DNA of 64,000 bases from Lysinibacillus macroides (GTDB lineage Bacteria > Bacillota > Bacilli > Bacillales_A > Planococcaceae), in contig NZ_LGCI01000010.1 of the NCBI RefSeq assembly GCF_001281525.1, positions 21,203-85,202 on the forward strand, read 5' to 3'. The position numbers were made by a program, and so were the translations under genes. The notes under the pieces are model-generated. The model was not told the origin of the DNA, searched no databases, and saw only the letters and a list, made by a program, of their open reading frames with translations. Shown piece after piece: positions 3 to 36,810 of the stretch (the first letter of the stretch is position 1; each line of letters begins with the position of its first letter).

Positions 3-3000
3 ATTTCAATCCACTCTCTTCATACAAAGAGAGACAAATAGGGTGTTTTTATTTCTTCAAATAAGGAGTATTTCAATCCACTCTCTTCATACAAAGAGAG
101 ACCATCAAAAGCGCCTCGATTAATAATTGAACATGTAATTTCAATCCACTCTCTTCATACAAAGAGAGACCGAAAGCTTGGGCTTAGATGCAGCATTAGC
201 AGATGTAATTTCAATCCACTCTCTTCATACAAAGAGAGACCGAAAGCTTGGGCTTAGATGCAGCATTAGCAGATGTAATTTCAATCCACTCTCTTCATAC
301 AAAGAGAGACCGAGCTGGCTTTACATCTTGCAACAATTGCGAGCAATTTCAATCCACTCTCTTCATACAAAGAGAGACTCAAAAGACCTTTGTATTTTGT
401 TGTGAGCTGGGGGATTTCAATCCACTCTCTTCATACAAAGAGAGACGAGTACAAGTTCCCTAATTATAAAATTCCATTGATTTCAATCCACTCTCTTCAT
501 ACAAAGAGAGACATCTACAATGGGTTTCACAAGAAAAATTTAGTAATTTCAATCCACTCTCTTCATACAAAGAGAGACTACGGCAAACAAGCTAAATCAG
601 ATACGTTTATTAAATTTCAATCCACTCTCTTCATACAAAGAGAGACATGTTTTACGACCATTCCCACGATGACCAGACATTATTTCAATCCACTCTCTTC
701 ATACAAAGAGAGACAACTGCTGGTTAATGTACAAGCCAGCTCTGCATAATTTCAATCCACTCTCTTCATACAAAGAGAGACTAAAAAATTCGACAAACAG
801 TAACAAAATAATAATTTCAATCCACTCTCTTCATACAAAGAGAGACTTTGATGCCAGCAACATAAAAAGAGAAGCACCTATTTCAATCCACTCTCTTCAT
901 ACAAAGAGAGACTTATATATTTCACAGTTCAACACCTCCAAATTCCGATTTCAATCCACTCTCTTCATACAAAGAGAGACAGGGAGTATATGAGATGTCA
1001 ATTCAGGTTGGAATTTCAATCCACTCTCTTCATACAAAGAGAGACTATGACACCTATTAACACAGCAAAAGATGCGGTGGATTTCAATCCACTCTCTTCA
1101 TACAAAGAGAGACGCTGCTTTATTAGGATTGATTGGATAAATAGGCTATTTCAATCCACTCTCTTCATACAAAGAGAGACGAGCAGTTTTTAGCAAATTA
1201 TCAACTCGATATGATTTCAATCCACTCTCTTCATACAAAGAGAGACGCAAGGATATACTTTACAAAACTTATTTGGTTATATTTCAATCCACTCTCTTCA
1301 TACAAAGAGAGACAATCGCCATTGATTACTTTTTCACGTTGTAAATTATTTCAATCCACTCTCTTCATACAAAGAGAGACTTATTTGGTACACCACTCGA
1401 GGACTTAGGGCCATTTCAATCCACTCTCTTCATACAAAGAGAGACAGAGAGGGAATGATTTGAAGGAATCCATTAAAATATTTCAATCCACTCTCTTCAT
1501 ACAAAGAGAGACTTTCGTTTTCTCTTGGATCAATAGGAACATTACCATTTCAATCCACTCTCTTCATACAAAGAGAGACAATACTCATGATAGGGCAACT
1601 TACCATTATCAATTTCAATCCACTCTCTTCATACAAAGAGAGACGTTAATGATACTAAAGAAAAGGCGAGAGCTTGCAATTTCAATCCACTCTCTTCATA
1701 CAAAGAGAGACTACCATAGCAATTGCTGATGCAACAGCCGCAAATATTTCAATCCACTCTCTTCATACAAAGAGAGACACTTAGTGTGTTGCCAGTTGCT
1801 ACTACGCAACCCATTTCAATCCACTCTCTTCATACAAAGAGAGACAACGTATTAGCTCGCGATGATGTATACATTGATATTTCAATCCACTCTCTTCATA
1901 CAAAGAGAGACTATTGTATATATATGGATAGTAAGCACGAATCAAATTTCAATCCACTCTCTTCATACAAAGAGAGACAAATACTCATGATAGGGCAACT
2001 TACCATTATCAATTTCAATCCACTCTCTTCATACAAAGAGAGACAAGGATACCATCTTTATTTTACTGATTTTCAAACATTTCAATCCACTCTCTTCATA
2101 CAAAGAGAGACGAGCAAAACAAAATATAAACTAAGGAGTTGATTGATTTCAATCCACTCTCTTCATACAAAGAGAGACTAACAAAATAGATAAAATACAT
2201 AAATAAAGGGAATTTCAATCCACTCTCTTCATACAAAGAGAGACTCATGCACTGGCGTAGACGTAGCATGATGGGAGCATTTCAATCCACTCTCTTCATA
2301 CAAAGAGAGACCACGTTATTTATCATCGTTTTAAATATCAAGCAAATTTCAATCCACTCTCTTCATACAAAGAGAGACGACTATGATATAAACACTCACG
2401 AGGTCTTTAAAATTTCAATCCACTCTCTTCATACAAAGAGAGACAAAAGACAGTATGCCATTAGATACATTTTTAACAATTTCAATCCACTCTCTTCATA
2501 CAAAGAGAGACATGATTTTATGCGACTTGCCATATGGTACAACTATTTCAATCCACTCTCTTCATACAAAGAGAGACGAAAAATTCTCCTGCTATGAAGG
2601 TGTTAGGTGATCATTTCAATCCACTCTCTTCATACAAAGAGAGACGATGTTCTACTAAGAGATATTAAATATGTAACTGATTTCAATCCACTCTCTTCAT
2701 ACAAAGAGAGACGGTGAGCGTCAAGTGGGAAATCGTTCCTTTTATCATTTCAATCCACTCTCTTCATACAAAGAGAGACGTATTCAGCAAACCAAACAAG
2801 TGGCGAGATGATATTTCAATCCACTCTCTTCATACAAAGAGAGACAGACTTCGCAGCGTGTGGTTTGTTATTCCGTGAATTTCAATCCACTCTCTTCATA
2901 CAAAGAGAGACAGCTGATGGGTAGGATTGATACAAACGATTTGCTGATTTCAATCCACTCTCTTCATACAAAGAGAGACGTCAACATTAACGAGGGTTTA

Positions 3001-4473
3001 ATCAAAGGTATTATTTCAATCCACTCTCTTCATACAAAGAGAGACAATTCGATGATGTCCTCCACAGTATTAGTTGTGATTTCAATCCACTCTCTTCATA
3101 CAAAGAGAGACGACATATATGGTTATTACCTTCTACGAGACGAATTATTTCAATCCACTCTCTTCATACAAAGAGAGACCTACGGCTGTTGTTGAATACT
3201 TAGAGCGTATGAGATTTCAATCCACTCTCTTCATACAAAGAGAGACTAGCTAAACGAGATTTATTTTTATCTTTAGACAATTTCAATCCACTCTCTTCAT
3301 ACAAAGAGAGACCGATAACTGCTTATCAAGATTCGATTCTTAAGATTTCAATCCACTCTCTTCATACAAAGAGAGACACGCAAAGCACGATTCATTTGGT
3401 CTGAGGTTGCAATTTCAATCCACTCTCTTCATACAAAGAGAGACGTTAGCGTTCCCACTGCATTGTAAACATTAAAATAAATTTCAATCCACTCTCTTCA
3501 TACAAAGAGAGACAGATAACAGCATGGGAGCTGTTGCTAGTGGCAAATTTCAATCCACTCTCTTCATACAAAGAGAGACATGCGACATAAAAATATAGGA
3601 AGGTAGGTGATAGCATATTTCAATCCACTCTCTTCATACAAAGAGAGACAAGGACAAGCCAATCCAAAAAATCACACGTCTTATTTCAATCCACTCTCTT
3701 CATACAAAGAGAGACATGGCAAAAGAAATTTCCATGATTCAGCGTAATATTTCAATCCACTCTCTTCATACAAAGAGAGACTTTAGATTTAATGATGTAC
3801 ATGGTTTAACAGTTATTTCAATCCACTCTCTTCATACAAAGAGAGACTTTTGGCGCATTATAAAGCCATACACGTCCCTCATTTCAATCCACTCTCTTCA
3901 TACAAAGAGAGACCTATCATTGTCGTACTATCTTTCAGATCGTAATTTATTTCAATCCACTCTCTTCATACAAAGAGAGACTATTTTCTCCCTCATCACT
4001 ACGAGACTCACGACCAATTTCAATCCACTCTCTTCATACAAAGAGAGACACAAACATTCAAACAGTGGAAGTTGCAAAAAATGATTTCAATCCACTCTCT
4101 TCATACAAAGAGAGACAGGTAGTATGCGAATTGATAGCTTGCAACAACAGATTTCAATCCACTCTCTTCATACAAAGAGAGACCAAGAGCGTGTAGCCCA
4201 CGAATAGACGGTTATAGGGATTTCAATCCACTCTCTTCATACAAAGAGAGACCGGTGTTGTGGATGGCGTAATAAATAAAGCAAAATTTCAATCCACTCT
4301 CTTCATACAAAGAGAGACGTCGTTTTGATGGTCTAACACTGTTGTGGTTGTGATTTCAATCCACTCTCTTCATACAAAGAGAGACTCTCTTCATACAAAG
4401 AGAGACCAATATTTGTGCGACTAAGTGCAGTAATTGTTGTACAAAGAGAGACTCTCTTCATACAAAGAGAGAC
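3..4473 (-). CRISPR. Large type I-C-like CRISPR array (66 full repeats plus one truncated)
   Basis: Sixty-six copies of a 33-bp repeat occur every 65-70 bp, the first at 3-35 and the last full one at 4353-4385; I saw no substitutions among them by eye. Spacers are 32-37 bp. On the minus strand each repeat starts GTCTCTCTTTG, contains a CTCTCTT/AAGAGAG stem, and ends GTGGATTGAAAT, the 3' end typical of type I-C repeats, so crRNAs should be read leftward with the leader on the right. The first two bases of the window look like the tail of a further spacer and the left end is not degenerate, so the array probably continues beyond the edge. Two adjacent spacers are identical (171-207 and 241-277). 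Another protospacer occurs twice (1580-1611 and 1979-2011). An abnormal truncated repeat closes the right end. No cas genes are in the window. The type assignment rests on the repeat only. Confidence 0.97.
4353..4473 (-). repeat. Expanded first repeat (54 bp), 33-nt spacer and truncated leader-end repeat (34 bp)
   Basis: The last full repeat (4353-4385) is followed directly by a second copy of its 21-bp stem-loop part (4386-4406), making a 54-bp expanded repeat. Then come a spacer-length 33-nt segment (4407-4439) and a 34-bp element (4440-4473) bordering the leader. Read on the minus strand, this leader-most 34-bp element is identical to the first 34 nt of the 54-bp repeat and lacks the 3' part ending GTGGATTGAAAT. 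The simplest reading is slippage that expanded the first repeat, followed by one spacer acquisition in which only a fixed repeat length was copied. A crRNA from the 4407-4439 spacer would lack the normal 5' handle. Confidence 0.85.
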
Positions 4474-4640
4474 TGTGAAAAGCAATATAAAAATAATATT
4501 TATAATTGATTTTCATTATAAAATAAATCTATAAGGTCATAATAACCTAAGCTTCCTTCCATTTCAATGGAAAATTGGTTGTTTTATAGGTGCGAATCTC
4601 CCTGGGGAATCATGTTTGCTTCACATTCGCACCTACTAGT
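4474..4640 (-). promoter_or_regulatory. CRISPR leader with conserved-looking hairpin
   Basis: The AT-rich stretch directly right of the array lies on the side where a type I-C leader is expected. It contains a hairpin with perfect 10-bp arms (AGGTGCGAAT at 4588-4597 and its complement at 4625-4634), and a TTCCATT/AATGGAA inverted repeat around 4558-4573 that also contains the repeat-like motif ATTTCAAT. On the minus strand a TATAAT-like box near 4519 could serve the pre-crRNA promoter, but no strong -35 box is obvious. From memory, a GGTGCGAA...TTCGCACC hairpin recurs in type I-C leaders of Bacilli; this was not checked by alignment. From 4641 to 4855 I see no gene; a 60-codon Cys-rich reading frame at 4567-4749 overlaps the hairpin and is probably spurious. 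Confidence 0.6.
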
Positions 4641-36425: not shown

Positions 36426-36519
36426 TAAAATCGGAAATGGAAATGAAGGACATGCACACAAAGAAGTGAACAAATCTCTCGCCTCCACTTCTCAATCCCC
36501 GAAGAATGTGTTGCTGTCT

Positions 36520-36690
36520 TGAACAATGCGGCAGGTCTCCTGGCTTATGCTTCCTCCAAATAATCACCTTCCCATTAAAAAACAGTGGCTTTTCGATTAT
36601 TTGTCAGCACGTACAGTTGCGGGGACAGCTTCGGCTTGCAAGCATACTTGCTCCGAATTCCCTTTTAAACCATCTTGGTACCGCTTGTCC
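36520..36690 (-). ncRNA. Cobalamin (B12) riboswitch upstream of class I RNR genes
   Basis: Read on the minus strand, the conserved elements of the cobalamin aptamer appear in order: GAATTCGGAGCAAG, GCCGAAGCTGTCCCCGCAAC, AAGCCACTG, AATGGGAAGG, then AAGCCAGGAGACCTGCC at the 3' end (the B12-box-type sequence). It precedes a terminator and the class I (B12-independent) ribonucleotide reductase genes. The logic would be that sufficient adenosylcobalamin lowers expression of the B12-independent enzyme in favour of a B12-dependent class II enzyme encoded elsewhere, which is an inference. Reading frames crossing this stretch are artefacts. Confidence 0.95.
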
Positions 36691-36810
36691 AACATACTAT
36701 ATATTGTGTTTTGATTCCTAAACAAATCTAACATATTGTGTTTCGTGTTGCAATAGGTGTTTCGTCCCTTGCCATTTTCAACACAGCTCATCTGCTCGAA
36801 ACAAGCCCTA

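Follow-up and report, generated by a model that had tools for sequence, protein, structure and literature searches.

Probable footprint of distance-set spacer integration at an expanded type I-C CRISPR repeat

How far from the leader the second integrase cut falls has been addressed in several CRISPR subtypes. In the type II-A system of S. thermophilus, the available text of Kim et al. 2019 (PMC6895254) describes a second cut that stays at a fixed distance when indels are engineered downstream of the ruler element. The same portions of that paper also describe new type II-A repeats that lose their 3′ base or take one from the neighboring spacer. Repeat-size rulers have been attributed to type I-E (Goren et al. 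2016) and type I-B (Wang et al. 2016), as these studies are cited in the accessible parts of PMC6895254 and PMC13034035. For type V-A of F. novicida, the accessible part of PMC13034035 infers a ruler component from repeat-length mutants. A study of type I-C adaptation (PMC6519985) deals, in its available sections, with prespacer processing, and the “ruler” named there is Cas4 cleavage, not repeat length. Here we describe a type I-C array in which the repeat copy nearest the leader and the next repeat differ in length from all other repeats and are related to each other in a way that bears on how the second cut is placed.

Structure of the leader end of the array

We analyzed a stretch of 64,000 nucleotides of Lysinibacillus macroides DNA (the window; G000:C8:21203-85202), which opens within a minus-strand CRISPR array. 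Most of the array, at 3..4385, consists of 66 type I-C repeats of 33 bp (GTCTCTCTTTGTATGAAGAGAGTGGATTGAAAT, hereafter R33), all of them identical, and 65 spacers of 32 to 37 nt. RNA folding gives an 8-bp hairpin in R33. The same repeat recurs left of an adjoining run of N, down to about C8:11880. The leader occupies 4474..4632, also on the minus strand, and meets the array at 4473/4474. In minus-strand order, the elements after the leader are a 34-bp repeat copy, R34 (4473-4440); the newest spacer, S1 (4439-4407); an expanded repeat of 54 bp, R54 (4406-4353); and S2 (4319..4352), a 34-nt spacer taken up before S1 that adjoins the intact 3′ end of R54. The leader-most of the 66 normal repeats is the distal part of R54.

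Comparison letter by letter bore out the preliminary description of this locus, in which the last normal repeat was said to be enlarged to 54 bp by a tandem 21-bp stem-loop segment and to be followed, toward the leader, by a 33-nt spacer and a 34-bp terminal repeat equal to its first 34 nt. R54 is exactly the first 21 bp of R33 joined to a complete R33, with the extra stem-loop copy at 4386-4406 and the intact 33-bp repeat at 4353-4385. TRF independently called the 21-bp unit (4363-4406, period 21, 2.1 copies, 100% match), and the R54 pair is the only one among the 68 stems in the window whose members lie <45 nt apart. R34 is identical to the first 34 nt of R54 and lacks TGAAGAGAGTGGATTGAAAT. 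The block common to R34 and R54 starts exactly at the leader junction, with no extra matching base leaderward, and ends after 34 nt. One ambiguity attaches to the spacer: the 34th common base (A, 4440) may belong to S1, which would then have 34 nt in place of 33. Both lengths are ordinary for this array, since 20 of the 65 spacers between intact repeats have 33 nt and 23 have 34 nt (range, 32 to 37). We concluded that an exact 34-nt prefix beside a 21-bp tandem duplication is not a product of chance.

Because repeats are hard to assemble and this draft genome comprises 15 contigs, with a run of N, possibly an assembly gap, at C8:16543-21202 immediately to the left of the window, we considered whether the arrangement is an assembly artifact. 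The R34/R54 structure is ~4.3 kb away from that run. It covers only 121 bp and adjoins unique leader and spacer sequence, and a misassembly would not be expected to yield an exact 34-nt prefix beside a unique spacer of normal length. We regard an artifact as highly improbable.

Three further features of the window were recorded. The same spacer is present in two neighboring units, at 171-207 and 241-277, which amounts to a tandem duplication of one repeat-spacer unit. One spacer sequence occurs with 32 nt at 1580-1611 and with 33 nt at 1979-2011, six units apart, the single-base difference in length being at the non-PAM end; perhaps one target was caught twice. Compared with Rfam at gathering scores, the window gives a single match, a cobalamin riboswitch at 36512-36700 on the minus strand.

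Leader junction, cas genes, and spacer targets

Four other arrays of the same genome have leaders homologous to that of the window array, at C15:11212 (91%), C1:1258504 (88%), C8:775024 (80%), and C1:1269138 (77% identity over 183 nt, including the repeat start; this is the cas-adjacent array). The alignments span 182 to 197 nt, that is, the leader plus the initial repeat bases. With all four leaders, a complete normal repeat begins at the position matching the start of R34; the leader at C1:1258504 ends one base earlier. By alignment, then, the leader-repeat junction is confirmed by four homologous leaders. Since these homologues place the repeat start at the start of R34, the block shared by R34 and R54 begins at the leader-repeat junction. 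The block has the geometry of a target-site duplication, and the duplication begins where a ruler would have it begin, at that junction.

The window repeat fits the description of type I-C repeats (32 to 33 bp, an end of GTGGATTGAAA[T/C], and a hairpin). A complete I-C operon, cas3-cas5c-cas8c-cas7c-cas4-cas1c-cas2c, lies outside the window at C1:1261248-1269124, and a homologous leader and array follow directly after it. A second cas set (cas3, cas4, and cas1, with the best fit to type I-B models) is found 16 to 20 kb beyond the I-C operon, and neither of the two cas1 matches of the genome is in the window. Because the window array and the array beside the I-C operon have the leader and the repeat family in common, we presume that the operon on C1 supplies the window array in trans.

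At an E value of 0.1 or better, 90 phage records match the window array. We inspected two of these 90 and found the targets of four spacers (none of them S1), with 1 to 4 mismatches, preceded by TTC, TTT, CTC, and TTC; exact TTC thus stands beside two of the four. Type I-C prespacers carry the complementary GAA, according to the available text of PMC6519985. The target flanks appear to fit the direction of the array, the boundary of the 33-bp repeat, and the I-C PAM. Three of the four are consecutive spacers, at 2780-2946, and match the same strand of Bacillus phage SDFMU_Pfc, for which Lysinibacillus fusiformis is recorded as the host. Their targets fall within ~1.6 kb, the genes hit being that for the large terminase and two hypothetical neighbors, and this clustering suggests primed acquisition.

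We searched for the origin of S1 in several ways. No protospacer was found in phage records, where the best matches were of 21 to 22 nt with E values of 1 to 4. Among 151 genomes of the family (this one included), S1 matched only its own locus at up to 3 mismatches. Viral contigs contained no exact 22-mer of S1, four codon-degenerate S1 patterns gave no match, and neither did a 19-mer. An 18-mer of S1 retrieved eight stretches identical at 21 to 26 of 33 positions, but 18 of those identities are there by construction, and we took these matches as chance. We accordingly treat S1 as a spacer of presumed foreign origin and give the copied length as 33 to 34 bp.

The genome as a whole carries a very heavy CRISPR load, with 403 matches to the repeat core at up to 3 mismatches, five arrays of this leader family, and cas1 genes of both I-C and I-B type. 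The cas-adjacent I-C array has two peculiarities of its own. At C1:1271004-1271061, a 62-nt “spacer” is made up of ACTCTCATTATGAGAGTGTGGATTGAAAT (29 bp) twice in tandem, with 4 nt besides. Each copy, with GTC prefixed, would make a 32-bp I-C-type repeat of a different sequence, and no further copy of ACTCTCATTATGAGAGTGTGGATTGAAAT was found in the genome at up to 2 mismatches. Near C1:1276142-1276343, a spacer-repeat unit is present three times in nearly identical form, with the variant repeat end GTGGGTTGAAAT; we read the triplicated unit as a likely sign of tandem array rearrangement.

Proposed history of the expanded repeat and its partial copy

In our view, the arrangement is very probably the scar of a single type I-C acquisition at a previously lengthened repeat, during which 33 to 34 bp, not 54 bp, were copied and the second cut was placed by distance. 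In a first step, the repeat that now lies beside S2, at that time the leader-proximal one, would have gained a tandem duplicate of its first 21 bp (GT plus the stem-loop) and so become R54. The 21-bp unit starts with GT and has GT after it, a pattern such as slippage would leave, and it is from this pattern that we infer the mechanism of the duplication. In a second step, Cas1-Cas2, together with Cas4 in this subtype, would have integrated S1. One strand would have been attacked at the leader junction and the other 33 to 34 bp downstream, inside the second stem-loop copy and not at the true repeat end 54 bp off. Gap repair would then have duplicated just those 33 to 34 bp, placing R34 on the leader side and keeping the whole of R54 beside S2. 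On this account, what placed the second cut would have been its distance from the leader junction and/or the first stem-loop; the GTGGATTGAAAT end would not have determined it.

The length of the copied segment, 33 to 34 of 54 bp, compares with 33 bp for a normal repeat, and the uncopied 20 nt are found on the distal copy only. Recognition of the repeat end would have given a 54-bp duplicate; since 33 to 34 bp are seen, the 3′ end of the repeat would not have been recognized. We concluded that the footprint is evidence for a ruler and against the GTGGATTGAAAT end having been recognized. The preliminary description had proposed that a normal-length segment was copied from the leader side, which holds now that the segment is seen to start at the confirmed junction. 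It had further proposed an integrase that measures a fixed distance from the leader junction and ignores the 3′ end. The ruler and the unrecognized end are retained from that proposal, and the leader is one of two options for the anchor. A ruler anchored at the leader and one anchored at the first stem predict the same cut and are inseparable here, because the duplicated 21 bp hold the whole stem-loop. The footprint stands single, with no replicate acquisition in the data examined, and the intermediate with the expansion only (leader-R54-S2) was not seen in collections that hold one genome per species.

A different course of events would be a normal acquisition that made a full 54-bp copy, with the leader-side copy later losing the 20 bp of TGAAGAGAGTGGATTGAAAT. 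Two events suffice for this after the expansion, and arrays do rearrange, as is seen in the duplicated spacer unit in the window and the triplicated one on C1. However, the ends of such a deletion share 0 bp of microhomology on either side, and slippage would have taken 21 bp and restored R33 instead of taking 20 bp. It would also have to be a coincidence that the deletion ended exactly at the repeat-spacer boundary and left 33 to 34 bp behind. We therefore judge a later deletion very improbable.

Variation in repeat length among relatives also bears on the ruler. Some relatives have type I-C repeats of 32 bp and some of 33 bp, and this difference is found even between arrays with ~81% identical Cas1 proteins; in one 32/33-bp pair, Cas1 is 90% identical, and the 33-bp repeat of that pair is unusual. 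Such pairs suggest that Cas1 does not rigidly fix the ruler at 33. The mixed lengths would fit some anchoring within the repeat and are not decisive between a protein-set and a repeat-set ruler.

We surveyed arrays near I-C-type cas1 genes and near related leaders in other genomes. We left out loci of the L. macroides genome itself, arrays lacking a TTGAAA[T/C] end, and those in which a 14-nt seed occurred fewer than three times; after identical arrays had been merged, 112 distinct arrays at 109 loci with 2,651 repeats remained. Homology to cas1_DVULG above the cut-off was present in 62 of 398 genomes of the class and 92 of 398 genomes of the phylum, of whose loci a part was taken, and many of the surveyed loci show only ~16 repeats. 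Repeats were 32 or 33 bp long in 93 of the 112 arrays. The 95 arrays with repeats of 31 to 34 bp (2,346 copies) made up the I-C-like set, the 17 with 37-bp repeats being left out of it; in 93 of the 95, the first repeat is the exact consensus. None of the 112 arrays had two stems <45 nt apart, and none had a first repeat without its tail. The same test applied to the window array flags both R34 and R54. A degenerate pattern for a duplicated I-C stem occurred once in this genome and in none of the other 397 genomes of the class set. In the genus, a search with the leader plus R34 gave matches in 7 of 32 genomes, this one included. Four of the other six matches were weak (E, ~1e-4), and two (G016 and G025) had clearly homologous leaders; five of the six leader loci in these two genomes have normal first repeats, and the sixth (L021) has one repeat after its leader, of normal appearance. 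We concluded that the arrangement is rare, being found in 0 of 95 I-C-like arrays elsewhere.

The survey figures bear on one more history, in which S1 was acquired normally (leader-R33-S1-R33) and both repeats were changed afterward by template switching or gene conversion between them. DNA palindromes can provoke template switching. The repeats are palindromic, and R54 as RNA is predicted to form one long 19-bp hairpin of −22.8 kcal/mol, compared with −8.7 kcal/mol for R33. However, at least two complex events would have to yield R34 as an exact prefix of R54 while leaving normal repeat and spacer lengths, and no tandem stem was flagged among the 2,346 repeats of the I-C-like arrays. Such a history has, we believe, a very slim chance of being correct.

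The survey test flagged 15 of the 109 loci for some feature. The first repeats of L156 (3 mismatches) and L170 (5 mismatches) are off consensus, each being an isolated upstream copy, and that of L187 is 1 mismatch off. In L056, L162, and L195, internal repeats are one base short, alone among normal neighbors, and are uninformative on the ruler. By eye, we judged L072, L079, L080, L083, L110, L152, and L177 to have degenerate repeats, most of them toward the far end, or to have been flagged through chance matches. In L171 (G879), the first repeat is 1 mismatch off the array consensus, and all of the seven newest repeats shown have this deviating base; the pattern suggests that acquisition handed on a change in the leader-proximal repeat. 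In L135 (G526), the presumed leader contains a degenerate repeat-like element of 38 bp, ~60 to 100 nt ahead of the first repeat; the consensus repeat of this array is 32 bp.

Predicted consequences and relation to known rulers

R34 keeps a foldable hairpin and ends in UCUCUCUUUGUA instead of UGGAUUGAAAU. The handle of a type I-C crRNA is the last 11 nt of the repeat. Hence, the crRNA of S1 would begin with UCUCUCUUUGU(A), not with UGGAUUGAAAU, and so would carry a foreign 5′ handle. Any later acquisition at this array would be expected to copy R34 again, still without the tail. A broader conjecture, which we put forward tentatively and on the doubtful side of even, is that the I-C Cas4-Cas1-Cas2 complex cuts purely by distance, from the leader or the first stem-loop, without regard to the 3′ end. 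A single slippage event in the first repeat could then poison an array, with each later acquisition copying a tail-less repeat of 33 to 34 bp and later spacers lacking a working handle, while sister arrays with the same leader still work. If the distance-set reading is true, the conserved GTGGATTGAAAT end, which is the source of the crRNA handle, does not tell the integrase where to cut. It would also point to a route by which an array loses function, in that an insertion in the leader-proximal repeat becomes a defective template and is not corrected. R54 is a ready substrate for separating leader anchoring from stem-loop anchoring of the I-C ruler.

As in the type II-A system of S. thermophilus, the second cut here would lie at a fixed distance. 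The two cases differ in their Cas1-Cas2 and repeat and in the nature of the change, which was an engineered one of 1 to 3 nt there and is a natural duplication of 21 bp here. The type I-E and I-B rulers, as far as the citing texts describe them, likewise set the second cut by distance, with motifs within the repeat as anchors; unlike the present case, they were derived from engineered repeats and in other subtypes. In type V-A, according to the accessible part of the F. novicida source, the second cut also needs the conserved spacer-proximal end of the repeat, whereas here that end is absent at the cut. The type I-C Cas4-Cas1-Cas2 system of B. halodurans (PMC6519985) has the same subtype and adaptation genes, and its repeat is given as 32 bp in the available sections. 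We found no earlier report of an I-C or a natural repeat-ruler case in our searches of open-access papers. It seems that the experiment for which others engineered repeats has occurred here naturally, and in a subtype for which those searches gave no mapped repeat ruler. By comparison with these systems, we regard the locus as a natural, type I-C instance of a behavior already known from engineered repeats.
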